64,000 bases of DNA, from NCBI RefSeq assembly GCF_030012175.1, contig NZ_JASCXW010000003.1, positions 1 through 64,000 on the forward strand. The letters run 5' to 3'. Positions 31,085 to 49,115 of the stretch are shown one piece after another; positions within the stretch are counted from its first letter, which is position 1; the number at the start of each line of letters is the position of its first letter. This DNA is from Peloplasma aerotolerans (GTDB lineage: Bacteria; Bacillota_I; Bacilli_A; Acholeplasmatales; Acholeplasmataceae). The position numbers and the translations under genes are program-made. Below the pieces are notes generated by a model. It had not been told where the DNA came from and did no database searches. It worked only from the letters and a program-made list of their open reading frames with translations.

Positions 31085-31131
31085 TTGAAAAAAGAAAGCG
31101 GTTGCATTATAATGTAACTGAAACGTTTCGA
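31085..31131 (+). promoter_or_regulatory. Main promoter of the glycan locus with cre site and LacI-type operator
   Basis: TTGAAA (31085-31090) and TATAAT (31108-31113) are 17 bases apart. In the spacer, 31092-31106 (core GAAAGCGGTTGCA) matches the CcpA cre consensus with a single mismatch. GAAACGTTTC (31120-31129, extended TGAAACGTTTCGA) covers the expected start site. Both sites are placed to repress, one for catabolite control and one for a local LacI-family repressor such as the one encoded at 51953. Confidence 0.75.
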
Positions 31132-31330
31132 TTAAGATATCGAACGTGACTGCAGATGATTTTCTAACTTAACCCAGTTTCAGTAACACCAAGAAAAGTC
31201 CTTGCTACAACGATGATGTAAGCGATTTCAAATGGATACGTGAGTCTGGATTATATTTTAGACAAAACTCGAAACGTTTCGATTGAACTTTTTTTGCATG
31301 GAACAAGAAACAAAAAATAGGAGGAAAGAA
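31132..31330 (+). promoter_or_regulatory. Long untranslated leader with a second operator copy
   Basis: About 200 bases without a credible gene lie between the promoter and the first gene. The perfect 14-base palindrome TCGAAACGTTTCGA is at 31269-31282. It shares the flanks AACT and GATT with the first operator; the centres are 151 bases apart. A TATATT at 31252-31257 could be the -10 box of a weaker second promoter. A run of seven Ts follows at 31289-31295. No known riboswitch was recognised. The region upstream (30993-31084) holds only the A/T-rich promoter of the minus-strand permease. Confidence 0.6.
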
Positions 31331-34300
31331 ATGAAGAACGCTGTAAAATATTTAACTTTATTTTTAGTTATGGGACTGTTATTTACAATAGCTGCCTGTA
31401 AGCAAGATGATCCAACACCATCTGAACCAACACCTACTGTTGATCCTACGCCTACAGATGACCCAGTGATTGTAGATTTCAATGTATTAGGTAATTGGGC
31501 TGATGATGGTGATGGTGTCTATACGATAACCACAAATACAGCAGCAGAACTTGAGTTCTCATATGCAAAAGGTACATTCCCTAATGCATCAATGAGTAGT
31601 GCACTTATTACTGAAGATTTATCAGTTTATAAAAAGCTGGTTATCACAGTTGAAGGTGCAGGGACTATGTTGTTAAGACTTGAAACAAGTGACTCAACAC
31701 CAACTAGAGAAGTTGGGTTAAATGTTACAGGTATTCAAGGAACTTATGAGTGGAACTTAATCAATGCAGCTAGCTTTTTAGAAAAAGTTAACAAGATAAC
31801 TATTATTGCTGCTCCTGATAAAGAAGATTCAATTGGTGTTATTAGTTTAACTAAATTGATGTTCCAAGAATCAGTTGCTGATGGGTTTATCATTAACGAT
31901 GGATTTAATAATATTCCTACAAACGTCAATGAATACAATGGAACTGATGAAATATTCAATTTCAATGATAAATGGGAAAACTTTGCTGAAGAGACATATA
32001 CAATTGTCAAAGATGGCGATGTGTTTAATGTTGACTTTACAAAAGGTGCAGGATTTGAATGGTCTGCAATGCAATCAAAAGTACAAGGAACATTCACTGA
32101 CTTTAACTTTGTTGTTGTAAAAGTATCAGGTACAGCAGGACAACCAATCATTGTGAAAGCAGCTGATGGCGTTGAAACAAGAATTATATTGAGTGGAGAA
32201 ATCCAAGAAGTAGTCGTTGACATATCAGAGATGGCTGTTGCTCAAAAAAATGCTATTCAAGCTATCTTAATTTTTGGTAATGCAGGTAGAGTAGGATCAG
32301 GTTCATTTACAATTCATGAAGCATTTATGATTGATGATTATGACTATGAAGCACCTGTATTCGTAAAGAATATCTATAATGGCATTGATTCAGAGTTTGC
32401 AGTTGGTCACTGGTTTGATGGTGGAGATGTTGTATATACCATTACTGAAGCAGATACTGAGTATCATGTAGAATATTCAAAACTTGATGGTGGTCTAGAA
32501 TATGCAAATATGCAAGCTCTTATTGAAGGTGACTTTAGTAACTTTGCTAAGATAGAGTTTGAAATAACAGGACAAAATGCAAAAACAGTTTTACTCAAAG
32601 TTGAGGGAACTCAAGGCGTTAAGGAAGTACCAGTTACATTTGATGGAACTAGACAAGTTATTGTTTTCGACTTAATGACAATGACACCTACACAACTTGA
32701 TGCACTTAACAAGCTTGTAATATTTGCTGCTCCTGGTGGTATCGGTGCTGGTGAATTTACAATTCATAGTGTTAAATTTTTGACATCCGATTATGATGCT
32801 AATGGTTTATGGGAAGAAGTCGATGCAGACACTTATGATATTACATTTGGAGAAACGACTACCGTAGCATATACAAAAGTAGCTACTCAAGAATGGGCTC
32901 ACATGAGAGCACTATTTGATGCTGAAGATGTTGCAGGACTGAATACACTAACAATCGTTATTAAAGGTGAAGTTGGAAAAGAAATTCTAATCAAACCAAA
33001 TGATGATGGAGCAATAGAGCAATCTATTACATTCATTGATACTGATCCAGTTACATTAACATTTAAAGCAGAAACATTTGTATCTATTATCTTATTTGCT
33101 GAACCAAATGTTGCACCTGCTACAGGAACATTTGAGATTATCTCAGTAACGCTAAGTTATGTGATACCTGAAGCTGACTTTGATCCAACCTTGATATTAG
33201 ATATCAATAATAACTGGGAAGAAAATGATCCTGACACATATGATTTCACATATGAAGAAGATGGATCAGTTACTGTTGATTATGATAAAACAGGTTGGGC
33301 TTTCATGAAGCAAACCTTTAATGCACAAGAAGTTGCTGGTTTAAATACAATGACAATCGTATTTGAAGGTACTGTTGGCAAGCAAATTATGGTTAAACCA
33401 AATGATAGTAATGCTCTTGAACAATGGATTACATTTACAGAAGATCCATATGTGTTAACAGTATTCTATGAAAATGGATTTACAAATCTATTAATATTCG
33501 CTGAACCAGATACAGTTGCAATGGATTCATTCACTATTATTTCAGCAACACTTAGCTATTCAGTAGACATTAATAGTAATTGGGAAGAAAATGATCCTGA
33601 CACTTATGATTTCACATATGAAGAAGATGGAACAGTTACCGTTGATTATGATAAAACAGGTTGGGCATTCATGAAGCAAACCTTCGATGCAGAAGCAGTA
33701 GCTGGTATGAATACAATGACAATCGTATTTGAAGGCACTGTCGGCAAGCAAATTTTAGTTAAACCAAATGATAGTGGAGCGTTAGAACAATGGATTACAT
33801 TTACTGAGGATTCCCATGTAATGACAGTATTCAATGCAAGTGGATTTATGAATGTATTAATATTTGCAGAACCAGATACAGTTGCAATGGATTCATTTAC
33901 AATCGTTTCAGCTATGTTAAGTTATGTAATGCCTGAAGTTGATTTTGATCCAACATTAGTCTTAGACGTTAATGCTAACTGGGAAGAAAATGATCTAGAT
34001 ACTTATGATTTCACATATGAAGAAGATGGATCAGTTACTGTTGATTATGATAAGAGTGGTTGGGCATTCATGAAGCAAACCTTTGATGCAGAAGAAGTTG
34101 TCGGATTGAACACATTAACAATGGTATTTGAAGGTTCGCTTGGTAAACAAATAATGGTTAAACCAAACGATAGTAACGCACTTGAACAATGGATTACATT
34201 TACTGCTGATCCTCATGTACTCGTCGTTCGTTTTGCAGATGGATTTACGAATGTATTAATATTTGCTGAACCTGATACAGTTGCAATGGATTCATTTACA

Positions 34301-35077
34301 ATCGTATCAGCAACACTTAGTTATACAGTAGACGTCAATAGCAACTGGGAAGAAAATGATCTAGATACTTATGATTTCACATATGAAGAAGATGGATCAG
34401 TTACTGTTGATTATGATAAAACAGGTTGGGCATTCATGAAACAAACTTTTGATGCACAAGAAGTCGCAGGTCTGAACACATTAACAATCGTACTTGAAGG
34501 TACTGTTGGCAAGCAAATTATGGTTAAACCAAACGACAGTAATGCATTAGAAGAATGGATTACATTTGCTGATACTGACCCTGTAACGTTAACATTTACT
34601 GCAGAATCATTTATGTCAGTTCTTATATTTGCTGAACCAGATACAGTGGCAGCAGGTACGTTCACAATTGTTTCAGCGACATTAAGCTATGTTGCTCCAG
34701 TCGTTTTAGATGATTTAGATGTTACATTGGACTGGGCAGACAATGGTGATTCAGTTTATACATTTACTGAAGATGAAGGCACATTAATTGTTGATTATGT
34801 AAAAGTGGATCAAGGGTGGTCAACTGCTGTTTTAACAGCTAGTGATACATCTGGATATAATAAATTCACAATTACAATGACAGGTACTGAAGGAAAACAA
34901 GTCTTAGTTAAGGTAAATGATGCCATTGAAAATTGGGTTACATTTGATGTAGATGGTAATGGCACAGCTACCATTACAGCACCTAATATTCACAGTGTGC
35001 TATTGTTTGCAGAAGGCGGAGTTGATACAGTTACTGGTTCATTTATAATCACTTCAGCAATTTTATCGTACGAATAA
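31331..35077 (+). CDS. Giant repeat lipoprotein, probable glycan-binding surface protein
   Basis: A 1248-residue lipoprotein. The signal peptide ends in TIAAC with Cys23, followed by a Pro/Thr/Asp tether (DPTPSEPTPTVDPTPTDDP). The rest is nine beta-rich repeats of about 105-125 residues, each opening with an NW-E-TYxFT-like stretch and ending LLIFAEP...SFTIxSATLSY. Repeats 1-3 are divergent, 4 is intermediate, 5-8 are nearly identical and 9 is divergent. The fold is probably a jelly-roll like carbohydrate-binding modules, with repeated aromatic residues (GWAFMKQ, QWITF). That is inference from pattern and context: first gene of the glycan locus, GGAGGAAAG ribosome binding site, followed by sugar-binding proteins. 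No enzyme domain was seen. I chose ATG 31331; an upstream start at 31283 lies before the ribosome binding site. Confidence 0.85.
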   Translation: MKNAVKYLTLFLVMGLLFTIAACKQDDPTPSEPTPTVDPTPTDDPVIVDFNVLGNWADDGDGVYTITTNTAAELEFSYAKGTFPNASMSSALITEDLSVYKKLVITVEGAGTMLLRLETSDSTPTREVGLNVTGIQGTYEWNLINAASFLEKVNKITIIAAPDKEDSIGVISLTKLMFQESVADGFIINDGFNNIPTNVNEYNGTDEIFNFNDKWENFAEETYTIVKDGDVFNVDFTKGAGFEWSAMQSKVQGTFTDFNFVVVKVSGTAGQPIIVKAADGVETRIILSGEIQEVVVDISEMAVAQKNAIQAILIFGNAGRVGSGSFTIHEAFMIDDYDYEAPVFVKNIYNGIDSEFAVGHWFDGGDVVYTITEADTEYHVEYSKLDGGLEYANMQALIEGDFSNFAKIEFEITGQNAKTVLLKVEGTQGVKEVPVTFDGTRQVIVFDLMTMTPTQLDALNKLVIFAAPGGIGAGEFTIHSVKFLTSDYDANGLWEEVDADTYDITFGETTTVAYTKVATQEWAHMRALFDAEDVAGLNTLTIVIKGEVGKEILIKPNDDGAIEQSITFIDTDPVTLTFKAETFVSIILFAEPNVAPATGTFEIISVTLSYVIPEADFDPTLILDINNNWEENDPDTYDFTYEEDGSVTVDYDKTGWAFMKQTFNAQEVAGLNTMTIVFEGTVGKQIMVKPNDSNALEQWITFTEDPYVLTVFYENGFTNLLIFAEPDTVAMDSFTIISATLSYSVDINSNWEENDPDTYDFTYEEDGTVTVDYDKTGWAFMKQTFDAEAVAGMNTMTIVFEGTVGKQILVKPNDSGALEQWITFTEDSHVMTVFNASGFMNVLIFAEPDTVAMDSFTIVSAMLSYVMPEVDFDPTLVLDVNANWEENDLDTYDFTYEEDGSVTVDYDKSGWAFMKQTFDAEEVVGLNTLTMVFEGSLGKQIMVKPNDSNALEQWITFTADPHVLVVRFADGFTNVLIFAEPDTVAMDSFTIVSATLSYTVDVNSNWEENDLDTYDFTYEEDGSVTVDYDKTGWAFMKQTFDAQEVAGLNTLTIVLEGTVGKQIMVKPNDSNALEEWITFADTDPVTLTFTAESFMSVLIFAEPDTVAAGTFTIVSATLSYVAPVVLDDLDVTLDWADNGDSVYTFTEDEGTLIVDYVKVDQGWSTAVLTASDTSGYNKFTITMTGTEGKQVLVKVNDAIENWVTFDVDGNGTATITAPNIHSVLLFAEGGVDTVTGSFIITSAILSYE
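33215..33979 (+). repeat. Higher-order tandem repeat, copy 1 (domains 5 and 6)
   Basis: The 765-base coding unit holds two domains (from Trp codons at 33215 and 33581) and ends with the linker encoding PEVDFDPTL. The copy at 33980 has the same internal spacing of 366 bases. Confidence 0.85.
33980..34695 (+). repeat. Higher-order tandem repeat, copy 2 (domains 7 and 8)
   Basis: Domains start at Trp codons 33980 and 34346, each exactly 765 bases after its counterpart in copy 1. Homology fades after the SATLSYV codons near 34695. Confidence 0.85.
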
Positions 35078-35102: not shown

Positions 35103-35168
35103 AATCTAATCAAATTGCGAGCATTTCCTTTTGGCTTTTATGATCAAACTGCTCGCAATTTTTAGATT
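35103..35168 (+). other. Long intercistronic stem-loop
   Basis: AATCTAA (35103-35109) and AAATTGCGAGCA (35112-35123) pair with TGCTCGCAATTT (35150-35161) and TTAGATT (35162-35168), interrupted by a two-base bulge. This gives a 19-pair stem with a 26-base loop. The embedded ATTTTT could give partial termination, but no long T run follows. It probably separates or stabilises the lipoprotein mRNA from the next cistron. Confidence 0.65.
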
Positions 35169-35229
35169 AAACAATGATTTCTTCAAACAAATCACTGTTT
35201 CGTGTTATATATTAAACAAGGAGGAGAAA

Positions 35230-36702
35230 ATGAAAAAGATTTTGATGATATTTGCATTTGTCTTTTTAACTGTTGGGCTAGTTGCTTGTGGAGGATCTAC
35301 TGAAGATCCTACAACACCAGTTGATACAGATGATCCAACATTGTTACCAGGACAAATAGAAATCACATACGCATCTTGGGATTTAGGTTCACCAGAATCA
35401 GAAGAACCTAATATGCAACGTTTAATGATTAAAGCATTTGAAGAAGCATACCCTAATATTAAAGTAAGAATTATTGAACGTCCAAAAGTACCTGGAACAA
35501 ATGATGATTTAGGATGGAATGAGTTTTTAGCAGCACGTGCATCAACACAAACACTTCCTGATGTATTTCAGGCGGATAATATCCCATTTTATGTCATTAA
35601 TGACTGGGCATATAATTTAACTACAATTGCAAACGCTGATGATGAGTATATTAATGTCAGTGAAGATATTAGAGGCGTTGCTACTTATGATGGTAAGGTT
35701 ATGGCAATACCTAACGCAGTACATTATGCTGGATATGTAGTCAATGAAACACTTTATGATCGACAAGGACAAAACTATCCAGAAATCGATACCAACATGA
35801 CTGATTTTTTAGCTTATACTAAAGCAGCAGCAAACCATGCTAGTAATAACAATAACGGTGTTGTCGGTTTAGAAGGTATCGAACATATTATTCACTGGTA
35901 TCCAGCACAGCTCAATGAAAATTATCGCTGGTTTACATTATCAGATAATGGATTTAACTTAAACTCAACTGAGTTTACAACAACCATGGAGTTATATAGA
36001 ACTTTAAGAACAGATACAACTTATGTCTTAGAAGCTTTATATGATGCCGCTGGTGCAGAAGATTCACAAATTGAAATTGGAAATATCTTCCCAGAAGGTG
36101 ATCCGTTTAACAATGGGAATATTCTTGCTAAATGGTTTTATTCTTGGGATTTTGGATGGATTCAATCAAACATAAATTCTGGTCAATACACATGGGATTT
36201 AGAGTTTATAGGAACTCCTGTTGTTAACGGAAACAAACGTGTACCGATTGTCGCAGATTTTTACACAATCGCATCCAATTCATCACACCCTGAAGAGGCA
36301 TACTTACTTGCTAAATGGATGGGATTTGGAAAAGATGGCTATTTGAAACGTGTTGAGCTCTCAGAAACTGTACCTGGGATATCTCAAGTTAATTTTGCGC
36401 CAATTCAAAATGATGAAGAATTACTTGACGCTTATTTTAATCTATATCCTAACTTTCAAGGATTAAGAACAATTATTGAAACAGGTACATTTATTGTTGA
36501 ACCACCTAAATATTTACCTGGTTATATTGCCGCAAGATATACAGGCACGTATGATGCAGAAAACAAAATGTCAGATATTTTGGTTAAATTGATGGCTGGA
36601 GAAGTTGCATTAGCAGATATTAGGACACAACTAAACACGAGAGCAAACGCATTATACAATGAGGCAAGAAACAGTTTTGAAAATGCATTACAGAATAAAT
36701 AG
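35230..36702 (+). CDS. Extracellular solute-binding lipoprotein of a sugar ABC importer
   Basis: A 490-residue family 1 (MalE-like) binding protein. The signal peptide MKKILMIFAFVFL ends in the lipobox LVAC with Cys20, followed by a short Thr/Asp/Pro tether. The mature part starts IEITYASWDLGSPESEEPN, then EAYPNIKVRIIERP and LPDVFQADN, all typical. It should catch an oligosaccharide outside the membrane and hand it to a permease pair encoded downstream. The ATG follows AAGGAGGAG; the longer reading from 35131 lies inside the stem-loop region. It is flanked by hairpins on both sides, consistent with its own expression level. Confidence 0.9.
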   Translation: MKKILMIFAFVFLTVGLVACGGSTEDPTTPVDTDDPTLLPGQIEITYASWDLGSPESEEPNMQRLMIKAFEEAYPNIKVRIIERPKVPGTNDDLGWNEFLAARASTQTLPDVFQADNIPFYVINDWAYNLTTIANADDEYINVSEDIRGVATYDGKVMAIPNAVHYAGYVVNETLYDRQGQNYPEIDTNMTDFLAYTKAAANHASNNNNGVVGLEGIEHIIHWYPAQLNENYRWFTLSDNGFNLNSTEFTTTMELYRTLRTDTTYVLEALYDAAGAEDSQIEIGNIFPEGDPFNNGNILAKWFYSWDFGWIQSNINSGQYTWDLEFIGTPVVNGNKRVPIVADFYTIASNSSHPEEAYLLAKWMGFGKDGYLKRVELSETVPGISQVNFAPIQNDEELLDAYFNLYPNFQGLRTIIETGTFIVEPPKYLPGYIAARYTGTYDAENKMSDILVKLMAGEVALADIRTQLNTRANALYNEARNSFENALQNK

Positions 36703-36717
36703 TTAACCAAGACTCAT

Positions 36718-36750
36718 GTGAGAAGGAGTCCTATATGGATTCCTTTTCAC
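36718..36750 (+). other. Hairpin after the solute-binding protein gene
   Basis: GTGAGAAGGAGTCC (36718-36731) pairs with GGATTCCTTTTCAC (36737-36750), using G-T pairs, around a five-base loop. It is followed by CAAAAATT rather than Ts, so it looks like an mRNA-stabilising or partly terminating element between a binding-protein gene and its permeases. Confidence 0.6.
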
Positions 36751-36772
36751 AAAAATTATATCGGAGAAACAT

Positions 36773-39742
36773 ATGAAAATAACTGTTAAAATGAAAAAAT
36801 ACATAACACTCATATTGGTTTTGATTGTTTCCTCCTTTATCATATTAGGATTGAGTGGTGTTTTTAGAAGTTCAGAGACACCTAAACCGATCTTAACTTC
36901 ACTGGAATCAGTCTATCTAGAAGGCTATTATTCGGAATATTTAAATACATATGGTCATCATCAAATAGACACTGAACAATCTCATAAGATTGATGCAGTG
37001 GATTTTGTGCTACCTGAAGGTGAAACACTAAAAGAAGATTTACAAAGTTATGAATGGGTTGATAATTCTAGTATTTTTATTCACGTTGATATTGAACTTG
37101 AAGGTTTATATTATGTTCATATCAACTACTTGTCGCTATCTGTATCTCACATACCGATTGGTCTTTCAATTAAACTAAATGGAGATGAATTTCCGCCATA
37201 TTATGAGGCATCTCAAATTACACTCAATACATTATGGGCAGAGTCATCTGCACAAATGGGTGTTGATCGATATGGTAATGATGTGAGTGTCACTCAAGAA
37301 ACCTATGACATTGTTCAAGATGTCGTTATTAGAGATTCTAGAAAACTTTATAAAGATGGATTAGCATTTTTCTTAGAACAAGGGGAAAACATTATTGAAA
37401 TAGAGAAAATATCGGGTCAATTACTTTTAAATGAGGTACGGATTGAATCGAAGAAAAACTATATAACATATGAACAATACATTTCTAATTATACTGAACA
37501 AAACATTGACTATATTCAAAGATTTGAAGCAGAAGAAAGCTTGTATAGAAATTCTTCAACCATCTCTAGAGGAATTAGTAGAGATCCTTTAGTTGAACCT
37601 TACTCAATGACAAAACTTAAATTAAATGTCCTAGGAACAGACTCATATGATAATGCAGGTGATGCTGTCACTTGGGCTGTTGATATTGATCATCCAGGAT
37701 GGTATTATATTACATTTAAAGCATCTGTAGGAAGACAAAATACGACATCTTATAGAACGCTTTATATCAATGGAGAATTACCTTTTGAAGAAGCTAGACA
37801 TCTACCTTTTTCTTACGATAGAAAATGGCAGAACATTACTTTGCAAAACATCAATCAAGAGCCATTACAAATATATTTAGAACCAGGTGACGAAATAACT
37901 TTAGAAGTTGATGGCACATTGTTTTCTGCTGTCTATGAAAAATTAAGAATCATAACATCTGAAATGAGCACGCTTGGTTTAGATGTTACCAAACTAACGA
38001 GAAACAATACCGACAAAGGTATCGATTGGGTTATGCTTGATTATTTTCCTAATCTTCATGAAACACTCGCTAACTGGGTGGAAGAATTAAATGAAGTTAA
38101 CAACGTTTTAAGAGATTTATACGGATTCGAAAGAGATGCACAAGTTGTTCGTGATATCGAAGCTGGTATCTCTAGAATTCAAAAGATTCAAAGCGATATT
38201 AATGAGTTACCAAGAAGATTAACACTTTTATCAACAGGTTCATCAAGTGCAGTTCAATTGATTACAAATCAACTTGATAATATATTGAAACAACCAGCAA
38301 TTATTGATGCATTTTTTATCCATACTGATCTAGAAGATTTACCAAATCCTAACCCAGGATTCTTAACGAATACATGGGTCTTTTTTGCAAGATTCTTCTT
38401 ATCTTTTGTCGATCCATCATATTCAGAAAAAGCTAGAGAAGATGAGCTTGAAGTTTGGGTAAATCGTTCTCGTCAATATGTCGATATGATTCAAAAAATA
38501 GCTGATGATCAATTTACTGTAGAAACAGGAATTAAAGTAAAAGTTTCTTTAATTAATGATGATTCAAAATTACTTTTAGCAAATTCAGCAAATCAGCAAC
38601 CCGATGTTGCTTTAGGTATCTCAGCATGGATACCTAATGAATATGGAATGCGTGGTATGCTTTATGATATGAGTCAAGCTGATGGTTTTAGTGATGTCAT
38701 ACAAGTCTTTAATCCAGAACAACTTATTCCGATGACATACGACGATAAACTCTATGGCTTACCAGAGACAGAAAATTTCTTTGTCTTATTTTATAGACGA
38801 GATATTTTAGAACAACTTGATTTAACTGTACCAAACACTTGGCAAGATGTGTTAAACATGCTGCCAGTACTTAGAAGATATGGTATGAGTTTTTATATAC
38901 CATTATCATCATCTAGTGCACTTAAATCGTTTGATTCAACCGCACCTTTTATTTATCAGTTTAATGGTCGAATTTATTCAGAAGATGGTTTGTCCTCTGC
39001 AATCGACCATGAAAACACAATACAAGCATTATCATTTATGACGGACCTTTATAGAGAATATAGTATGCCTTTTCAAGTTCCAAGTTTTTTCAATAGTTTC
39101 AGATACGGAGAAATACCAATAGGTATTGGTGATTTTGGTATGTACTTGCAGTTAATGAATGCAGCATCAGATATTAGCGGTTTATGGGAGATTGCCTTAG
39201 TGCCTGGCATTGAACACGAGGTTTTTGATGAACAAACAGATACTACAGAAAATATCATCAATCGATCAATGGGTGGTGCGCAACAAGCAAGTATTATCTT
39301 TGAGAAGAGCGAGAAGAAAGCAGAAGCTTGGCGATTTATCTCCTGGTGGATGTCAACAGAGACTCAGTTGCTGTTTTCTCAAACCATGGTTAACACATTG
39401 GGAACACGATACTTATGGAATAGTGCAAACATGGAAGCTTTTGAAGCGTTTAGTTGGGATCCAAGCCATAAAGAAATAATTCTGGAACAATGGTCGCATT
39501 TAAAAGAAGTACCCAAAATTCCAGGTAGTTATATTATTGAAAGAGAAATTAGCAACACATGGAATAGTGTGGTTTATAATGACGCAAACTTAAGAAGTAC
39601 AGTCAGTGATGCATTAATAAAAATTGATCGAGAACTCGCACGTAAAATGATGGAGTTTGGTTATTTAGACAGTAGTGGTAATGTTATAAAACCATTTATA
39701 CTACCAACGGTAGAAAATATCATGAGGTGGTATAATGAGTAG
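36773..39742 (+). CDS. Membrane-anchored fusion of CBM-like domains and a solute-binding protein
   Basis: A 989-residue protein. An N-terminal membrane anchor (residues 9-33, no lipobox) is followed by a beta-rich domain (about 40-215). A second domain at about 250-405 starts RFEAEES and has [10 protein letters not shown], which resembles CBM6/35 modules. A helical linker (about 410-545, [22 protein letters not shown]) leads to a family 1 solute-binding protein domain (about 558-989; [52 protein letters not shown]). The anchor would hold the binding protein on the cell surface beside its permease. It overlaps the first permease gene by eight bases. Domain assignment for 40-250 is tentative. 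Confidence 0.8.
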
Positions 39743-40682
39743 ATTTAGTAAAGCCAAACTCAAAATCAATAAATTCATAGATAGAGAGAAAAAAGAATTT
39801 AAAAATGACGATAAGGCGGCATATTTTTTCACGTTACCATACATTATTTTGTTTATTACATTTATCGTCATTCCAATCGCTTTAGCTATGGTCTTATCAT
39901 TTACGACATTTGATATGGTTTCTTTTCCTAAGTTTAACGGATTTAACAACTATATTTATTTGTTAACAAGCGATGAGGAGTTCATGAAATATATCTTGCC
40001 TAATACGATAAAGTTTGCAGTTATCGTTGGACCAGGTGGGTATATTCTTTCATATGTGATGGCATGGGCTTTAGCTCAACTCCCACATAAATTAAGAACT
40101 GTTTTAGCAATCGTTTTATACTCTCCTTCATTAACCGCAGGGGTTACAATGACCGTTGTTTGGCGTGTCTTTTTCGCTGGAGATGAATCGGGCTATTTAA
40201 ACTTTATTTTACTGGAATTAGGTATGATTGTTGAACCTATCGCTTATTTACAATCCCCTAATTATTTATTTACCATTATGATTGTGGTGGCTTTATGGGG
40301 TAGTATGGGTGTAGGATTTTTAGCGATGCTTGCTGGTATTTTAAATGTAGATCAAGAGCTTTACGAAGCTGCTTATATTGATGGTCTAAATAATCGTTTT
40401 CAAGAAGTTATCTATATTACGATACCTGCAATGAAACCTCAAATGCTTTTTGGAGCCGTTATGGCTATCGTTGGAACATTTAGTGCAGGTGCACTAGGTG
40501 TTTCGTTATCAGGTTCCAATCCGACTCCAAATTATGCAGGATCTTTGATTGTTAACCATATTGAAGACTATGGGTTTATTCGTTATGACATGGGATATGC
40601 AGCTGCGTTATCTTTAGTGTTATTACTCATTATTTATTTCTTCAGTAGACTAAGCTGGAAATTCTTTGGCGAGAAAGACTAG
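39735..40682 (+). CDS. Sugar ABC transporter permease (MalF type), pair 1
   Basis: A 315-residue inner-membrane permease with six core helices. The EAA loop reads [25 protein letters not shown], which contacts the ATPase. The first about 35 residues are cytoplasmic and charged. It overlaps the fusion binding protein by eight bases and precedes its MalG-like partner by nine. An AGGTGG ribosome binding site is present. No ATPase gene accompanies it, so a shared MsmX/UgpC-type ATPase from elsewhere is expected. Confidence 0.92.
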
Positions 40683-40691
40683 GAGGTCAAG

Positions 40692-41573
40692 ATGAAAAAA
40701 ATAAAAAACTTTAAAGCAGTTAAAATTAATCCTCCAAAATTCACTTGGGCTCAACTACCATTTTTATTGATGGTTTTACCGATTGCAACATTTATGGTAT
40801 TACCATTAATCTATATTTTTAATCATGCATTTAAACCTTTTGATGAATTGATAGAATATCCGCCAAGATTCTTTGTTAGAAGACCGACATTAGAAAACTT
40901 ATTTGAATTGTTCGAAACAGCGACCACGACTGGTATTCCTGTTTCAAGATATTTATTTAACAGTATTGTTATTACAATCATCGTTGTGTTTTTATCAATC
41001 TTTTTAAGTACAATCACAGGTTTTGCACTTTCCAAACTTAAATTTCATATCAAAGGAACGATATCACACATCAATACGATAGCGATGATGTTTGTTGGTA
41101 CAGCAGTTGTTATTCCAAGATACATCATCATTGAACATCTAGGTTTAGTCGATAATTTCTTTGTTCATATAATTCCAGTAATTGCCATTCCGGTAGGTTT
41201 ATTTTTGGTCAAGCAGTTTATTGATCAAATACCAGATGAAATTATGGATGCTGCCAAAATCGATGGTGCAAGTAGTTGGACGATATACGTTAAAATCATT
41301 CTTCCACTCATTAAGCCAGCAGTAGCAACTATCGCGATTTTATCATTTCAAGCAGTTTGGAATGATGCAAGTATATCAGCAACATACATCAACTCAGATT
41401 CATTAAAAACATTTGCCTATTACATGGCGACTTTAGCATCATCATCAAATGTTGTAGCTGGACAAGGGATGAATGCTGTCGCATCTTTAATCATGTTTAT
41501 GCCGAACCTTATTATATTCATATTCCTTCAAAGTAAGGTTATGAATACAATGGTTCATTCTGGAATTAAGTAG
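40692..41573 (+). CDS. Sugar ABC transporter permease (MalG type), pair 1
   Basis: A 293-residue permease with six helices. The EAA loop is DAAKIDGASSWTIYVKIILPLIKP. It starts nine bases after the MalF-type partner with an AGGAGG ribosome binding site. The two would form the heterodimeric channel of an oligosaccharide importer. Confidence 0.92.
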   Translation: MKKIKNFKAVKINPPKFTWAQLPFLLMVLPIATFMVLPLIYIFNHAFKPFDELIEYPPRFFVRRPTLENLFELFETATTTGIPVSRYLFNSIVITIIVVFLSIFLSTITGFALSKLKFHIKGTISHINTIAMMFVGTAVVIPRYIIIEHLGLVDNFFVHIIPVIAIPVGLFLVKQFIDQIPDEIMDAAKIDGASSWTIYVKIILPLIKPAVATIAILSFQAVWNDASISATYINSDSLKTFAYYMATLASSSNVVAGQGMNAVASLIMFMPNLIIFIFLQSKVMNTMVHSGIK

Positions 41574-41581
41574 GTGACCAT

Positions 41582-43603
41582 ATGAGAAAATATATAATCA
41601 CCATCATTTTAATCATGGGTATCTTGCTTTCCCTCAGCTTTGAGGTGAAAGCTTCTAACCCGTCATCTTATGGAATCCCTTATCAAACTTACACATTAAA
41701 TGCATCAAATCGATTGATACCTACTCAAACCGCATACATGCCTGTTGGGAATTTCGGAAAAGAATTAGGCTTAACCACACCTGAGGATATATTTTATGAA
41801 AACAATTTAATCTATATTGCCGATACTGGTAACAAAAGAATTGTAGTTTCTAGTTTAACAGGTGAACTTATCGATATCATTTCATTTCCTGAATTTATGC
41901 AACCAACAGGGATATTTGTCAAAGATGAACTCATATATGTTGCAGATAAACAGGCTAAAAATGTGTTTATAATCGATATGTTAGCAAATGAAATCGTACA
42001 AACAATCGAGAAACCAACATCCCCAATTTATGGACAAAAAAATGATTTTGTCCCAATAAAAGTTGCAGTTGATTCAAGTGATAGTATATACATCGTTGGT
42101 GAAGGATCAACTTCTGGCATTATTCAGTTAAACTATGCAGGAGAGTTTGTTGGGTACTTAGGTATTAATACAGTCGTTTTAAGTTTAAGAAGAATCTTAT
42201 ATAACATTTTCGTTCAAGATCCAGATTTAGCATCATCTCTTCCTGCATCTCCAACAAATATCGCTTTAGGATCAAAGGGATCGATTTTGACAACAAATGT
42301 TAACGTTAATGAAACATTTAAGAGATTAAATATATCAGGATTAAATACATTACTCCCAACAACTGTTTATCCTACACAGACATTATCGGATATTTGGATG
42401 AATCATGAAGATTATATTTATCTCGTGTCTGAAGCTGGTGATGTTTATGAATATGATAGTAACGGAAACATGTTATTTTACTTTAATACAAGAGATCAAG
42501 CACTCACTCAAACACTCGGTTTAACATCTAATGCCAAAGGTGTTATCACTGATCATAGTGGTAATTTATATATTTTAGATCGCGGCTATAATGCGATTCA
42601 TGTTTATCAAAGAACTGTTTTTGTTGACTTAGTACATGAGGCAGTGACTTTGTATAATGATGGAAAATATTTAGAATCAAAACCTATTTGGGAAGAAATC
42701 ATTCGTCAAAACTCTTCATTTGCATTAGCACATTCAGCATTAGGTGCTGCACTTATGAAAGAAGGAGAGTATGATCGTGCATTAGAAGAGTTTTATGATG
42801 CAAGAGATTATCTTGGGTATTCAAATGCTTTTTGGGAAATTAGAAATGTAGCAATTCAAGAAAATCTTACAATATGGGCATTATTTATCATTGGGTTTTT
42901 CATATTTATGAAAATAGGATTAAGAGTTTTTAGGAAATCCATGGTGTATCCGAAATATGAAAAAGTTAAAAAAACAATCGGAGATAAAAAACTTGTTCAA
43001 GAACTTGCTTTTAGTATGAATACATTTAAACATCCTGGAGATATGTTCTATGGGATAAAACGAGCTGAAAAAGCTAGCTATTTATCTGGACTTATTGTTT
43101 TCCTATTGTTTGTTGCTGTTTATTTAATTAACTTTTATGGAACAGGGTTCCTATTTAGATCAACAAATCTCAATAGTGTATTTGTTCAACTTTTCACAGT
43201 CATTGGTGTATTCATGCTATATGTCATTGTAAATTATTTAATATCAACTTTAAATGATGGTGAAGGAAGATTTAAAGATGTATTTATAGCAACCAGTTAT
43301 ATTTTAGTTCCATACATTATCTTTACACTACCAATGACATTTTTATCACACTATTTAACTTATAATGAAAGTTTTATATTCGAGTTCTATCATCAAATTA
43401 TCTTTGGATGGACAGTTATTTTAATGATTATTTCTATTAAAGGTGTCCATAATTACACTTTCTGGGAAACAATTAAGAATATACTCATTATCATTTTTGG
43501 GATGTTTATACTTGTTTTAATTGGTCTGTTGATTTACTCGTTCTTAGGACAATTGATCGAGTTTGTTTTATCAATCATCAAGGAGGTGATTTATCGTGTA
43601 TAA
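41582..43603 (+). CDS. NHL beta-propeller, TPR and Yip1-domain membrane protein
   Basis: A 673-residue protein of unusual design. The signal peptide (residues 1-24, cleaved near VKAS) leads to an NHL-type beta-propeller (about 45-345; DIFYENNLIYIADTGNKRIVV and later repeats), then a TPR pair (about 350-425; YNDGKYLESKPIWEEII and ALGAALMKEGEYDRALEEFYDA). A membrane helix (about 436-455) and a C-terminal Yip1-like domain with five helices (about 490-665) follow. It sits between two sugar permease pairs and overlaps the next gene by eight bases. The role is unknown; a scaffold or sensor that organises the importers at the surface is plausible. Confidence 0.75.
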   Translation: MRKYIITIILIMGILLSLSFEVKASNPSSYGIPYQTYTLNASNRLIPTQTAYMPVGNFGKELGLTTPEDIFYENNLIYIADTGNKRIVVSSLTGELIDIISFPEFMQPTGIFVKDELIYVADKQAKNVFIIDMLANEIVQTIEKPTSPIYGQKNDFVPIKVAVDSSDSIYIVGEGSTSGIIQLNYAGEFVGYLGINTVVLSLRRILYNIFVQDPDLASSLPASPTNIALGSKGSILTTNVNVNETFKRLNISGLNTLLPTTVYPTQTLSDIWMNHEDYIYLVSEAGDVYEYDSNGNMLFYFNTRDQALTQTLGLTSNAKGVITDHSGNLYILDRGYNAIHVYQRTVFVDLVHEAVTLYNDGKYLESKPIWEEIIRQNSSFALAHSALGAALMKEGEYDRALEEFYDARDYLGYSNAFWEIRNVAIQENLTIWALFIIGFFIFMKIGLRVFRKSMVYPKYEKVKKTIGDKKLVQELAFSMNTFKHPGDMFYGIKRAEKASYLSGLIVFLLFVAVYLINFYGTGFLFRSTNLNSVFVQLFTVIGVFMLYVIVNYLISTLNDGEGRFKDVFIATSYILVPYIIFTLPMTFLSHYLTYNESFIFEFYHQIIFGWTVILMIISIKGVHNYTFWETIKNILIIIFGMFILVLIGLLIYSFLGQLIEFVLSIIKEVIYRV

Positions 43604-45839
43604 AACCTTGATTTTTAAACGCTCATTATACTTTATCATCATGGTTATGTTAATTTCTTTTACAGTTTATGCACTTGATGGATCCACTTTAAATGATGTT
43701 GATATTCCGAGTTTTGATGTTATTAGTCCTTATGTCGACTCAAATAGATATACGCATAAAAAAAGTGATGCAACTGCATTTAATCAACAATATTTCTTTG
43801 ATGACGCATTAGAAATCGTTACAAGTTCTGGAATCGTATATTTAGATGAAGCATCATTAGCTTTTCAAGTTGTCAATAGTAATGGCTATATTTGGTCTTC
43901 AACAATTGATTATAATGTTGCAGGTTTACCTAATACATTTAAGGAACGTGCAAGAAGTGCGATTATTTTAGAATCATATAACACTGAAGCAACCAATTTT
44001 GCGATTACCGAAGAAAACTTGTTTACAAATAATACGGAAATAACAACCCAAATCATTACGAACGGATTCCATTCAACCATCACTTTTGGTCGTTCAGGTA
44101 TCACGATTGGATTATATGTTACATTTGGGCATAATAAAATTACTGTAGAGATACCAGATGATGAAATTGATGAATCAGGTGCTTTTAAAATATCTAGCAT
44201 TAAAGTGTATCCTTATTTTGGAGCTGTCTTAGAAAACAACATCCCTGGTTATGTATTTTTACCAGACGGAATAGGTGCACTTGTCGACTATAAGCCGACA
44301 AATCCACTAGTGAGCACAAATTATCAAAAAGAAATATATGATCGTAACATTGGTTATAATACAGAATCGAATATGAATAACTTCTTGAGCGGAGGGACTA
44401 AGATTTACGCACCAGTTTTTGGATTTGTTCATGGTGTTAATCAAAATGCAGTCTTCGCAGAGATTAAAGAAGGTGCACCTTATGGCATGATAAACTTATA
44501 TTTCCCTGCAAGAACAAGAGGTTATACAACTGTATTTGCAGAATTTGTTTTTAGAAAAACGTATCGACAACCTATAGATAAAGTCGGAAATACCATTTCA
44601 CTTCTTCAACAATTCGGAAACGAGATATCAATAAAAATAGAGTATACATTATTAGAAAATGAAGACGCGAACTATGTTGGTATGGCAAAAGCATATCGTG
44701 ATAGTTTATCATCGGAGTTAAGTGGAAATCGTTATGATTTTGAAGATATACCATTAAAGTTAGATACAATAGGTATTGAGAGAAAAGATGGTTTGTTATT
44801 TCCTCAGACGATTGTGATGACAACGTTTAATCAGTTTAACGATATTGTCTTAGATTTACATGATAAAGACATCCATCATATTATTGGTAATTATCAGGGG
44901 TTTACTAGACAAGGTGTAACATGGTCCGCACCAATGTATGATAAAACATCATCTCGTTTAGGAAATATGAATGATTTAGAATCATTAAGTAAATCCTTAA
45001 CCGAGTTATATTTTGTTACTGAATATATGAAAGCCTCTAGTAGATCTAGTGGATATAACCAGTATTTTGATTTGGCTAAGAAAATAAATGATCAGCTATA
45101 TCAATATATATCTTCAACTGATCGAAAATATTTACTTCAATATGATAAATTGGAGTCATTATTGTTTGAAAGTTATATGGAGCTAAAAGAATATCCAATT
45201 GATGGGTTGGCAATTCAATCGATGGGGAATTTATTATATGATGATTTTTCTAAACAAAAATATTTGCCTGAACTCATTGAAATGCTTAAGTCATCACTGG
45301 ATTCACTAGATGCGAAAATTGCTTTATATGATGTGAATCAATACTTATGGGGAAATATTTCAAGTTTCTATGAATTTCCAATGTATTCAAGTCAATATAT
45401 TACATTCGATGATACTGTTCCCTTCTTATCAATTGTTTTAAGTGGAAGTATTCATTTATATGGACCTTATGCAAATTTCTACCCATATGCAAGAGATGAA
45501 CTATTAAGATTGATTGATTTTGGTGTTTATCCATCATTTATAGTGACACACGAATCATCGATAAAACTTCAAGAAACAGGCCTTGAATCGATATATTCTT
45601 CTAGATATCAAGATATTCAACATTCTATTTCTGCATATTATCATTTTGTTAATAATGCATTAAAGCATGTGATTGGAGCTAAAATTACGCATCGTGAAAT
45701 TCTAGAAAATGGAATTGTTGCAATCACATATGATAATGATATTCAAATTATTGTGAATTACCGAAGTATAAACTATAATTATGCAGATCAAATGGTTACT
45801 GCTAAATCATATTTAATCGTAGACTTAAATGAAGGATAG
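43596..45839 (+). CDS. DUF5696-like secreted protein of the glycan locus
   Basis: A 747-residue protein with an N-terminal membrane anchor or signal (residues 8-26) and a large extracytoplasmic region. The segment GYVFLPDGIGALVDYKP and the surrounding beta-strand pattern resemble DUF5696 proteins, which accompany sugar ABC permeases of the YtcP/LplB type in Bacillota. The C-terminal half looks like an alpha/beta barrel (DKDIHHIIGNYQGF, DGLAIQSMGNLLYDDF, LLRLIDFGVYPSFIVTHE), so a glycoside hydrolase-like fold is possible. A GTG start follows AAGGAGGTGA. The function is not established. Confidence 0.7.
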   Translation: MYKTLIFKRSLYFIIMVMLISFTVYALDGSTLNDVDIPSFDVISPYVDSNRYTHKKSDATAFNQQYFFDDALEIVTSSGIVYLDEASLAFQVVNSNGYIWSSTIDYNVAGLPNTFKERARSAIILESYNTEATNFAITEENLFTNNTEITTQIITNGFHSTITFGRSGITIGLYVTFGHNKITVEIPDDEIDESGAFKISSIKVYPYFGAVLENNIPGYVFLPDGIGALVDYKPTNPLVSTNYQKEIYDRNIGYNTESNMNNFLSGGTKIYAPVFGFVHGVNQNAVFAEIKEGAPYGMINLYFPARTRGYTTVFAEFVFRKTYRQPIDKVGNTISLLQQFGNEISIKIEYTLLENEDANYVGMAKAYRDSLSSELSGNRYDFEDIPLKLDTIGIERKDGLLFPQTIVMTTFNQFNDIVLDLHDKDIHHIIGNYQGFTRQGVTWSAPMYDKTSSRLGNMNDLESLSKSLTELYFVTEYMKASSRSSGYNQYFDLAKKINDQLYQYISSTDRKYLLQYDKLESLLFESYMELKEYPIDGLAIQSMGNLLYDDFSKQKYLPELIEMLKSSLDSLDAKIALYDVNQYLWGNISSFYEFPMYSSQYITFDDTVPFLSIVLSGSIHLYGPYANFYPYARDELLRLIDFGVYPSFIVTHESSIKLQETGLESIYSSRYQDIQHSISAYYHFVNNALKHVIGAKITHREILENGIVAITYDNDIQIIVNYRSINYNYADQMVTAKSYLIVDLNEG

Positions 45840-45848
45840 GAGGACGAC

Positions 45849-46739
45849 ATGAAGAAAAAACATAAAATATCAAGAAGACTTAGAGAAAATCTAATTGGAT
45901 ATTCATTCATCGGCATCTGGATTGTCGGGTTTTTCGTCTTTATGTTTTATCCTTTCATGTCATCGATTATTTATAGTATGAGTGTTGTTAGTATCCTCGG
46001 TAGTGGTATTGACCTAGAGTTCGTTTGGTTTGAAAATTTTAGAAATATATTCAGAATTGAAGAAGGTTTTGCGTTTATAGAAGCCTTAATAGATTTTTTA
46101 AAAGAAATCATTTTTCAAGTTCCAATCATTATCGTCTTCTCAGTTCTAATCGCTGTTTTACTCAATCAACCCATTAAGGGAAGAGGCGTTTTTCGATCTA
46201 TTTTCTTCCTTCCAGTTATCATATCGAGTGGACCCGTTATTAATGAATTGGTTACACAAGGTGCTGGAGGAGCTAATATTTTTGAAAGTTATGGATTTAT
46301 CAGTATTATTGAAAACACGTTAAATCCAAGTCTAGCTGCACCAATCATTAGTGTATTTTCAGAAATCATTATTATTTTCTGGTTTTCTGGTGTGCAAATA
46401 TTAATATTCCTTGCTGGTCTACAAAAAGTTGACCGTCAAATCTACGAGGCTGCATCCATTGATGGCGCAGGACCTTGGGAATCATTTTGGAAAATTACAT
46501 TACCATCACTATCAAGTCTAGTTTTTGTCAATGTGATTTATACGATTGTTTTACTTTCAACATTCTCAGAAAATCCAGTCATTTTAAGAATTAAAGCAAA
46601 TATGTTTAATATTAATACAGGGTATGGCATGGCATCTGCAATGGCATGGGTATATTTCATCATCGTGATGTTAATGATTGGTTTGGTTGCTTTAATCTTC
46701 ATCCCTAAAAATCCGAAAGTAAGGGGGCGAAATCGATGA
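45849..46739 (+). CDS. Sugar ABC transporter permease (MalF/UgpA type), pair 2
   Basis: A 296-residue permease with six helices and the EAA loop EAASIDGAGPWESFWKITLPSLSS. It is the second MalF-type gene of the locus, distinct in sequence from the first and closer to the LplB/YtcP type that travels with DUF5696 proteins. It overlaps its partner by four bases (ATGA). Confidence 0.92.
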   Translation: MKKKHKISRRLRENLIGYSFIGIWIVGFFVFMFYPFMSSIIYSMSVVSILGSGIDLEFVWFENFRNIFRIEEGFAFIEALIDFLKEIIFQVPIIIVFSVLIAVLLNQPIKGRGVFRSIFFLPVIISSGPVINELVTQGAGGANIFESYGFISIIENTLNPSLAAPIISVFSEIIIIFWFSGVQILIFLAGLQKVDRQIYEAASIDGAGPWESFWKITLPSLSSLVFVNVIYTIVLLSTFSENPVILRIKANMFNINTGYGMASAMAWVYFIIVMLMIGLVALIFIPKNPKVRGRNR

Positions 46740-47680
46740 ATCAAACAATACATCAAAAACCTAAAAGAACTTGGAAAACAAAAATAAGAAAATTTATACT
46801 AGGTAATACAGGAGCTGACTCTCCTTTAGCGAAAATTATTATATATATTTTGCTGATTAGTATAGGATTTTTATACATTTATCCGATGCTTTATATGTTA
46901 TCAACAAGTATGAAGAGTCAAGCTGATATTATCAATCCAATTGTTAATTGGGTTCCGACTGCATTTTACTTTGGGAATTATGAACGTGCATTTAGAGTAT
47001 TAAGATTTTTCCCAACCTTAACAGGTAGTTTAGTTATTACTTTAGTCCCAGCACTTATTCAAACATTGGTTACCTCATTTATTGGATATGGCTTTGCTAA
47101 ATTTGAGTTTAAGTTTAAGAAAGTTTGGCTGGTTTTAGTTTTAATGACATTTATTATTCCAGTACAAGTTTATATGATTCCAAGATATGTTATGTTCTTT
47201 GAATTTAACTTGTTAGAAAAACCAATGGCAATCATTTTACCAGCTTTATTTGGTCAAGGTGTTAATTCAGCAATATTCGTTTTGATATTTTATCAATTCT
47301 TTAGAATGATTCCTAAATCCATTAATGAAGCTGCTGAAATTGACGGTGCAGGTCCTTATTACATATTTTTTAGAATCGCAGTACCACTAGCCATTCCTGC
47401 CTTTATTACATCGTTTTTATTTGGTATGGTATGGTATTGGAACGAAACATATATATCTTCATTGTTTTTAGGATCCGGTTATCCTAATTTGCAATTAAGA
47501 TTAGCCAATTTCGTTTCTGAATATTCGCAAATTTATGCAAGTGATACATTATTAAGAATTAATGAAGGTGTTCGTTTAGCAGCAACTCTTCTAATCATCT
47601 TGCCAATGCTGATCGTATATTTTACAATTCAACGATGGTTCGTTGAAGGCGTTGAAAAAACCGGAGTTACAGGAGAATAA
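46736..47680 (+). CDS. Sugar ABC transporter permease (MalG/UgpE type), pair 2
   Basis: A 314-residue permease with a charged N-terminus and six helices. The EAA loop is EAAEIDGAGPYYIFFRIAVPLAIP. It overlaps the MalF-type partner by four bases and is followed immediately by a secreted glucanase gene, which ties import to outside cleavage. No ATPase gene lies nearby. Confidence 0.92.
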   Translation: MNQTIHQKPKRTWKTKIRKFILGNTGADSPLAKIIIYILLISIGFLYIYPMLYMLSTSMKSQADIINPIVNWVPTAFYFGNYERAFRVLRFFPTLTGSLVITLVPALIQTLVTSFIGYGFAKFEFKFKKVWLVLVLMTFIIPVQVYMIPRYVMFFEFNLLEKPMAIILPALFGQGVNSAIFVLIFYQFFRMIPKSINEAAEIDGAGPYYIFFRIAVPLAIPAFITSFLFGMVWYWNETYISSLFLGSGYPNLQLRLANFVSEYSQIYASDTLLRINEGVRLAATLLIILPMLIVYFTIQRWFVEGVEKTGVTGE

Positions 47681-47681
47681 T

Positions 47682-49115
47682 ATGAAAACAAAAATGAGAT
47701 ACAAGGATTTACATATAAATAGGTATTTAATTTTCATCATCTTTACCTTATTTACATTGGTACTCTTTGCTTGTACACCCTATAGCGAGCCTGTTGAATC
47801 AAGTATACCAACTGATCCAATTGATCCAACAACACCAGTAGAAACTCAAATACCAGATGAAAACACGAAACTTTATCGAACAGATGTAAGAAGTGATGTT
47901 AGTCAAGTTGTCTTAGATGAACTTGAACTTGGATTTCTATTTTTCTGGGAGTTGGCAAATGATAACCGTGAATCTAATGGGTATGGTTTAATCCCAGATC
48001 GATTTAATACGTTTACAGGCAATCCTGGAAGTGTTTCTAGTATAGCGTCTGTAGGGTATGGTTTATCAGCACTTCCGATTGGTATAGAAAACAATTGGGT
48101 AACAAGACAAGAAGCTGAAGAAAGAGCATATTACACATTAGTAACTTTTCAAAATATGCAAAGAACTCATGGCTTTTGGTACCATTTTGTAAATATGTCA
48201 ACGGGTCTTAGAGAATGGAATTCGGAAGTTTCTATTATTGATTCAGCTATATTTATTAATGGTGCATTGACAGTAGGTAGATACTTTGGTGGACGTGTGC
48301 AACAATTGGCATATCAACTCTATGAAGAAATTGAATGGAATTGGTATTTTGACCCAGTCAATAATATGTTTTATATGGGTTATCGTCCTGAAAGTGGTTT
48401 TGAAGGGTATTGGGATCATTATGGCGAGCAACTAATGGTTTACGTGTTAGCTGCTGGTAGTCCAAACTACAAAGTTGGAAAAGGCGCATTTCAATTCATG
48501 AAGTTCTCATCAACCCTAACGAGTTCAACAGATAATTATGACAGTTTTTATTTGACTTGGACTGGATCATTATTTACATATCAATATTCACATGCATGGG
48601 TAGATTTTCAATCCTATGTTGATTGGCAAGGATATTCATGGTTTGATAATAGTGTTAACGCAGTAGATGCAGCAATCGCATACGCAAAAACAAGAACTGA
48701 TTATATTGGAATTCACGAGCATTCATGGGGTATGTCAGCATCTGATGGTCCTGGAGGGTATGTTGGTCCTTATGGTAGTGCACCATCAGCAGGATCTGCT
48801 CATGTTGTTGATGGAACAGTCCCAGCATACGGAGCGATAGGATCGATTGTCTTTAGGCCACAACAAGCAATATCAGCCATGGAGAATTATCGAACATATG
48901 AACGTTTTTGGAGCGTATATGGTTTCAAAGGAGCTTATAACCTAGATTATTCATCTAACGGATGGTTTGCTAATGATATTATTGGTATTGATAAAGGTAT
49001 TTCGATTTTAATGATTGAAAATTATATGTCACAAATGATTTGGAAAATATATATGGAAGTACCTTATGTTATTGATGGATTAGAAGCTTTAGATTTCACA
49101 CAAATAGATACATAA
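47682..49115 (+). CDS. Secreted PF10091 (GH144-like) glucanase lipoprotein
   Basis: A 477-residue lipoprotein. The signal segment ends in LFAC with Cys31, followed by a Pro/Thr-rich tether (about 32-70). The catalytic domain matches the PF10091/COG5368 glycoamylase family: LGFLFFWELAN, SIASVGYGLSALPIGIENNWV, HGFWYHFVNMSTGLREWNSEVSIIDSAIFINGAL and WGMSASDGPGGY. The characterised GH144 enzymes of this family are endo-beta-1,2-glucanases, so outside cleavage of beta-1,2-glucan is the best guess. The ATG at 47682 follows an AGGAG site. A cytoplasmic paralogue is encoded next. Confidence 0.83.
   Translation: MKTKMRYKDLHINRYLIFIIFTLFTLVLFACTPYSEPVESSIPTDPIDPTTPVETQIPDENTKLYRTDVRSDVSQVVLDELELGFLFFWELANDNRESNGYGLIPDRFNTFTGNPGSVSSIASVGYGLSALPIGIENNWVTRQEAEERAYYTLVTFQNMQRTHGFWYHFVNMSTGLREWNSEVSIIDSAIFINGALTVGRYFGGRVQQLAYQLYEEIEWNWYFDPVNNMFYMGYRPESGFEGYWDHYGEQLMVYVLAAGSPNYKVGKGAFQFMKFSSTLTSSTDNYDSFYLTWTGSLFTYQYSHAWVDFQSYVDWQGYSWFDNSVNAVDAAIAYAKTRTDYIGIHEHSWGMSASDGPGGYVGPYGSAPSAGSAHVVDGTVPAYGAIGSIVFRPQQAISAMENYRTYERFWSVYGFKGAYNLDYSSNGWFANDIIGIDKGISILMIENYMSQMIWKIYMEVPYVIDGLEALDFTQIDT

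Follow-up and report, generated by a model that had tools for sequence, protein, structure and literature searches.

A nine-domain repeat lipoprotein as a probable beta-1,2-glucan capture coat in Peloplasma aerotolerans

Introduction

What does a 1248-residue lipoprotein, built almost wholly from copies of one repeat, do at the head of a cluster of glucan-degrading genes? The cluster lies in a 64,000-nucleotide stretch of Peloplasma aerotolerans DNA (contig NZ_JASCXW010000003.1, positions 1 to 64,000; hereafter the window). Beta-1,2-glucans, rare sugar polymers of bacterial origin, are signals and virulence or symbiosis factors, and the enzymes that cleave them were discovered only recently. 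An earlier note on this DNA had proposed that the lipoprotein, here called the array, forms a multivalent glycan-capturing surface coat. The computational analysis reported here strengthens that proposal with a predicted fold of the carbohydrate-binding module (CBM) type and a pathway-linked distribution, while sugar binding stands as a prediction. The array is probably a lipid-anchored, multivalent coat that captures beta-1,2-glucan, a reading in which sugar binding, the ligand and the abundance at the surface are what we infer.

Results

The array is a lipoprotein of nine homologous domains

The open reading frame (ORF), signal peptide and lipobox bear out the earlier description of a 1248-residue lipoprotein at 31331-35077. 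The lipobox, IAAC, occupies residues 20-23, and Cys23 is the sole cysteine of the mature protein, whose computed isoelectric point (pI) is 4.05. The genome carries three Lgt genes, which makes lipidation plausible. Residues 48-1248 are filled by nine homologous domains, D1 to D9. Leave-one-out hidden Markov models (HMMs), each built from the other eight domains, recovered all nine with E-values from 2.8e-10 (D1, the weakest) to 1.8e-53; the best value among 1000 shuffled control sequences was 0.007. The nine related domains of the earlier note are thus confirmed. By our own delimitation they are slightly longer, at 122-134 residues, than the 105-125 or so given there.

D5 to D8 share 77-84% pairwise identity. 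D1 to D3, only 16-32% identical to the other domains, form a divergent head. Conserved repeat positions comprise the aromatic W9, Y17, Y31 and W36, the acidic E77 and the basic K33 and K69; the aromatic and acidic positions had been noticed before, the basic ones had gone unmentioned. Two repeat subfamilies, homologous to each other (E 8e-20), both keep W9, Y31, W36, G60, K69, E77, F103 and G112, and K33 is kept solely in the subfamily of the window. As judged from this conservation, W36, K69 and E77 are natural candidates for binding-site residues.

The domain family, which had not been recognised from the letters, is also outside known sequence families. The best Pfam match of the array protein scored 21 bits against a cut-off of 27.6, a scan of NCBIfam gave no match, neither sequence nor profile searches of the PDB gave a significant one for the repeats, and the domain scan found no known surface domain. 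Homology to CBM_4_9 (PF02018) is not supported, with no HMM match and, in a profile comparison with the CBM_4_9 domains of sister loci, an hhalign probability of 1.7%; CBM_4_9 is a positional analogue only. A mobile-element or phage origin was rejected, since phages, plasmids and viral contigs contained nothing that matched the array. A peptide-pattern scan of genome contigs with D5-D8 found no relative, the patterns probably being too specific; a whole-genome profile search found many.

The repeats are predicted to adopt a CBM-type fold

An AlphaFold2 model of D5, computed from a 94-sequence alignment, is almost all beta (predicted local distance difference test score, pLDDT, 97.5; predicted template modelling score, pTM, 0.90), in line with the beta-rich repeats described earlier, and its predicted fold is a jelly-roll beta-sandwich. 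Foldseek searches of the PDB with this model returned mostly CBM6, CBM29, CBM22, CBM86, CBM11, CBM16 and CBM27 structures at probability 1.00, with query-normalised TM-scores mostly of about 0.5-0.67. The predicted fold is therefore one that known CBMs have. The earlier note had staked its reading on a fold with a carbohydrate-binding surface; that the best PDB matches of D5 are mostly CBMs supports the reading and does not prove it. The model of the whole array, built from 11 sequences, has a pLDDT of 80 and a low pTM (0.37), which suggests beta-sandwiches strung together flexibly.

The head is fixed and the tail expands

A tree built from 94 repeats of 13 genomes places D1, D2 and D3 each mostly with their positional counterparts elsewhere; D4 joins D4 in most members of the genus and in genomes G043 and G048. 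Many tail copies cluster inside their own genome (D5-D8 of the window, for example, with support 0.98; in G007, D4 pairs with D6, and D5 pairs with D7). The tail has thus expanded independently in several lineages. Linker lengths recur across genomes as 26, 17, 0, 8-10, about -1, 8-10 and about -1. The tail consists of two-domain units, in which the internal junction has zero length and the short linker is often PE(V/A)DFDPT. Arrays within the genus have 8-10 copies; those of close relatives beyond the genus have 6 where the array is complete. Synonymous changes dominate among D5-D8 (ratio of nonsynonymous to synonymous substitution rates, dN/dS, 0.13-0.29), so the copies are kept under purifying selection.

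The array very probably belongs to a beta-1,2-glucan regulon

As judged by its encoded proteins, the cluster reads as a beta-1,2-glucan utilisation locus. Its phosphorylase has PDB entry 5h3z, which we take to be a 1,2-beta-oligoglucan phosphorylase, as best match (E 3e-253), and the Pfam SOGP domains of the protein agree with that identity. Both PF10091 proteins have 8xul as top match and also match 5gzh, an endo-beta-1,2-glucanase. PMC12102758 identifies 8xul as XcSGL of Xanthomonas, and PMC11842490 describes beta-1,2-glucan utilisation loci in other bacteria.

The array gene is the first of the cluster, as previously noted, with a sigma-70-like promoter, two operator copies and a ribosome-binding site directly upstream (Table 1). 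Promoter-like sites in the region showed no enrichment over shuffles. A LacI-type operator, TCGAAACGTTTCGA, precedes the array gene here and in relatives. A counterpart of operator copy O1 is conserved in G003, G007, G008, G013, G002, G005, G006, G016 and G019, and copy O2 is the sole exact TYGAAACGTTTCRA site in this genome. Among 61 relatives, TYGAAACGTTTCRA occurs in 26 genomes, all of them phosphorylase-positive, and the reversed control pattern in 0. Of its 60 sites, 24 are no more than 6 kb from an array (for 21 of these the distance is at most 0.4 kb), and another 30 are within 25 kb of PF10091. G043 and G048 have a single exact site each, upstream of the array operon. The array thus carries the operator that marks phosphorylase genomes and very probably belongs to the beta-1,2-glucan regulon; the LacI-type repressor of the locus would be the protein that binds the operator. 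Six TYGAAACGTTTCRA sites are remote from known pathway genes (G024 C34, G005 C156, G026 C3, G040 C62, G050 C1:72051 and G060 C58) and could point to further regulon members.

A stable RNA hairpin separates the array gene from the transport genes. A simple terminator scan missed it on account of its long loop, and folding revealed it. Each of the six relatives examined (G003, G004, G007, G008, G013 and G016) also has a hairpin there, its stem sequence being different in G007 and G008, and a U run follows the hairpin in five of the seven genomes. In those five it may act as a leaky terminator, and in the other two it may protect the upstream message; either role would increase the amount of coat protein relative to the transporter.

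The array follows the beta-1,2-glucan pathway across genomes

Strong array matches (E <1e-10) were found in 17 of the 61 relatives. The phosphorylase is present in all 17, against 14 of the 44 others (p 5e-7); outside the genus the figures are 5/5 and 9/36 (p 0.003). The phosphorylase and PF10091 have identical distributions, in 31 of the 61 genomes. In a wider set of 392 genomes, PF10091 is present in 32, among them all ten with the strongest array matches (p 3e-12), and in 11 of the 19 genomes that match at all at E 1e-5. The earlier reading had depended on a distribution that follows glycan loci, and strong arrays are confined to genomes with PF10091 and phosphorylase, with which they share the operator.

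Members of the genus share one gene order with the array at its head, wherever contigs show it. Elsewhere the order is reshuffled: the array is convergent with GH3 in G026, follows SOGP in G052, lies between GH3 and LacI genes in G211 and G231, and follows PF10091 in G346. In G043 and G048 it stands apart from the pathway genes; next to it there is a LacI gene that shares 61-64% identity with that of the window. A pathway link that survives reshuffled gene order is better evidence than an inherited order.

Distant members of the repeat family occur in other settings. In G119 a lipoprotein has a GH16 domain followed by two distant repeats, which places the repeat as an accessory module of a carbohydrate-active enzyme, with repeat E-values of only about 1e-7; G264 has a similar two-repeat gene. 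In sister cassettes marked by DUF5696, the lipoprotein in the same slot has CBM_4_9 domains, which precede 3-5 second-subfamily (T2-type) repeats in G008 and G013 and distant repeats in G334, G335 and G346, and which stand without recognisable repeats in the C11 cassette of this genome. The cassette thus appears to accept different non-catalytic domains in one slot.

Discussion

Weighing the function of the array

By fold and context, we class the repeat as a new CBM-like family and not as a proven CBM, and beta-1,2-glucan is the most likely ligand because of the regulon. Several observations weigh against this. Foldseek also gives Eph ligand-binding domains and Cry toxin domains, and the TM-scores are moderate; the jelly roll also serves proteins that bind no sugar, so that a predicted fold alone is no proof of sugar binding. 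Nor do the repeats show significant profile homology to the CBM_4_9 domains of the sister loci. Related genomes are not independent samples, and the co-occurrence p-values therefore overstate the evidence. Of the 31 relatives with the phosphorylase, 14 lack a strong array match, so the pathway does not require the array, and weaker family members occur in genomes lacking PF10091 (8/19), so beta-1,2-glucan specificity cannot hold family-wide.

In one alternative the array is a glycan-binding coat or adhesin with a ligand other than beta-1,2-glucan, holding the cell to a glycan-bearing surface or neighbour near the glucan source. This would suit the CBM-type fold, and it would suit the distant members in GH16 proteins and other cassettes, from which it follows that ligands vary across the repeat family. 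The strict co-occurrence with the phosphorylase and the shared operator argue the other way, and we consider it unlikely. We regard as rather improbable a structural, S-layer-like coat or stalk that spaces enzymes and binding proteins from the membrane without binding sugar. A long acidic array (pI 4.05) of variable copy number (6-10), with a low whole-array pTM that suggests a flexible string, is compatible with such a stalk; however, a general coat would be neither limited to genomes with one pathway nor placed under the operator of that pathway, W36, K69 and E77 are kept in both subfamilies, and similar repeats follow a GH16 domain. A cohesin-like scaffold, its repeats binding protein partners to gather the lipoprotein glucanase and the solute-binding proteins, is very unlikely: the array shares a transcription order with the genes of both, but in G043 and G048 it is not adjacent to them, and no partner domain was found, without a systematic search.

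Proposed mechanism

A beta-1,2-glucan capture coat would operate through the following steps, in an order that we infer. Through Cys23 the array would be anchored on the outside of the single membrane. Its fixed head (D1-D3, together with D4, which genomes likewise have in common) and its variable tail of two-domain units would display nine CBM-type jelly-roll domains, which by avidity would hold linear or cyclic beta-1,2-glucan on the cell surface. The extracellular lipoprotein glucanase (47643-49115) would cleave the held glucan, solute-binding proteins and permeases would take up the oligosaccharides, and the cytoplasmic PF10091 enzyme, the phosphorylase and GH3 would complete the breakdown. 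The LacI-type repressor would govern the array promoter, and the hairpin after the array gene probably allows an excess of coat over transporter. A bolder claim, to which we would give somewhat less than even chances, holds the repeats to be a non-catalytic CBM family for (cyclic) beta-1,2-glucan, the first one dedicated to that ligand. Wall-less bacteria would use it as an expandable array anchored by lipid, in which the two-domain unit (a zero-length junction alternating with an 8-10 residue linker) spans the ligand.

Relation to known systems

The array repeats resemble CBM6, CBM29, CBM22, CBM86 and CBM11, their best PDB matches, in size and jelly-roll beta-sandwich, but differ in sequence (8-16% identity, with no significant PDB profile match) and in forming nine tandem copies in a protein without a catalytic domain. 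With SusE/SusF and other surface glycan-binding proteins of Bacteroidota the array would share a non-catalytic, multidomain, lipid-anchored build and a place in a glycan locus; it belongs to another sequence family, and the annotated locus genes include no SusC/SusD-type gene and provide ATP-binding cassette (ABC) import instead. A SusE/F-like function does not imply SusE/F membership. The CBM_4_9 lipoproteins of the sister cassettes hold the same head position, some fused with T2-type or distant repeats, but the two domain types have no significant profile similarity.

The known beta-1,2-glucan clusters (SOGP, SGL and solute-binding protein), as presented in excerpts of PMC11842490 and PMC12102758, share the phosphorylase, glucanases and ABC sugar-binding subunit, and those excerpts describe no repeat array or beta-1,2-glucan CBM. 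For the enzyme PgSGL4 only, PMC12102758 reports two putative C-terminal carbohydrate-binding domains. The literature searched yielded no dedicated beta-1,2-glucan binding module. If the proposal is true, a confirmed module would be a ready detection tool for these glucans, and Sus-like surface capture would extend to single-membrane, probably wall-less bacteria, with an array length that evolves by duplication.

Features of the window

Table 1. Positions of the array gene, its control elements and the neighbouring genes in the window (aa, amino acids)
Feature	Position	Strand	Basis
Sigma-70-like promoter TTGAAA-17-TATAAT	31085..31113	+	consensus match only (11/12)
Operator copy O1 CTGAAACGTTTCGA, just downstream of -10 box	31118..31131		
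Operator copy O2, perfect palindrome TCGAAACGTTTCGA	31269..31282		
Ribosome-binding site AGGAGG	31319..31324	+	sequence
Nine-domain repeat lipoprotein gene, 1248 aa	31331..35077	+	ORF, domain HMMs
Signal peptide and lipobox IAA-C (Cys23)	31331..31399	+	sequence; three Lgt genes in genome
Repeat D1 (head), aa 48-181	31472..31873	+	leave-one-out HMM
Repeat D2 (head), aa 206-336	31946..32338	+	leave-one-out HMM
Repeat D3 (head), aa 353-486	32387..32788	+	leave-one-out HMM
Repeat D4, aa 487-611	32789..33163	+	leave-one-out HMM
Repeat D5 (structure-predicted copy), aa 621-744	33191..33562	+	leave-one-out HMM, AlphaFold2
Repeat D6, aa 745-866	33563..33928	+	leave-one-out HMM
Repeat D7, aa 876-999	33956..34327	+	leave-one-out HMM
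Repeat D8, aa 1000-1121	34328..34693	+	leave-one-out HMM
Repeat D9 (last domain), aa 1127-1248	34709..35074	+	leave-one-out HMM
Stable RNA hairpin AAUUGCGAGC.. / ..GCUCGCAAUUUUU, between gene 1 and transport genes	35103..35168	+	folding, z -4.84
Lipoprotein solute-binding protein (start MKKILM)	35230..36702	+	
Membrane-anchored second solute-binding protein, 989 aa	36773..39742	+	
ABC permease pair A	39735..41573	+	
NHL/TPR/Yip1 membrane protein	41582..43603	+	
DUF5696 protein	43596..45839	+	
ABC permease pair B	45849..47680	+	
PF10091 beta-1,2-glucanase, lipoprotein (lipobox LFAC)	47643..49115	+	
PF10091 enzyme without signal peptide (cytoplasmic)	49133..50356	+	
LacI-family regulator	51875..52912	+	
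GH3 beta-glucosidase-like enzyme	53812..55986	+	
Phosphorylase (Pfam SOGP domains)	55949..59239	+	

Further observations

The cluster also encodes a GH13 protein and an AXE1-type esterase. The GH13 gene (50341-51966) scores above the NCBIfam cut-off of an alpha,alpha-phosphotrehalase subfamily, which is odd in a beta-1,2-glucan locus; the enzyme may act on a form of the glucan with alpha linkages. The array operon of G043 and G048 also has a gene for a DUF4886 lipoprotein (L044:16297-19899 and L045:17406-19091), and in G211 a repeat and DUF4886 stand within one protein (L088:9798-12203). DUF4886 may act on the ligand of the array.

The named close relatives are Tenericutes or Acholeplasmataceae metagenome assemblies. 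Only two Mur-ligase-type genes were found in the genome, which fits a cell without a wall; one is a weak match, in a 500-aa frame (G000:C34:91973). The host is probably a wall-less, Acholeplasmataceae-type cell.

The transporter cassette (35131-47680 in the window, and contigs C11, C2 and C34 of the same genome, G000) is conserved. It encodes four permeases, the NHL/TPR/Yip1 protein, DUF5696 and two solute-binding proteins, of which one is a membrane-anchored form of 1000 aa. A literature search for DUF5696 found no paper. The domain exceeds its family cut-off in 41 of the 61 relatives, with up to 7 matches per genome, and its cassette copies in this genome accompany GH130 and GH38 genes.

In small genomes of the same class (G250, G288, G294, G322, G358, G360 and G404; family f13), PF10091 forms part of ORFs some 2560 aa long, whose size suggests cyclic beta-1,2-glucan synthases; these bacteria are possible producers of the glucan.

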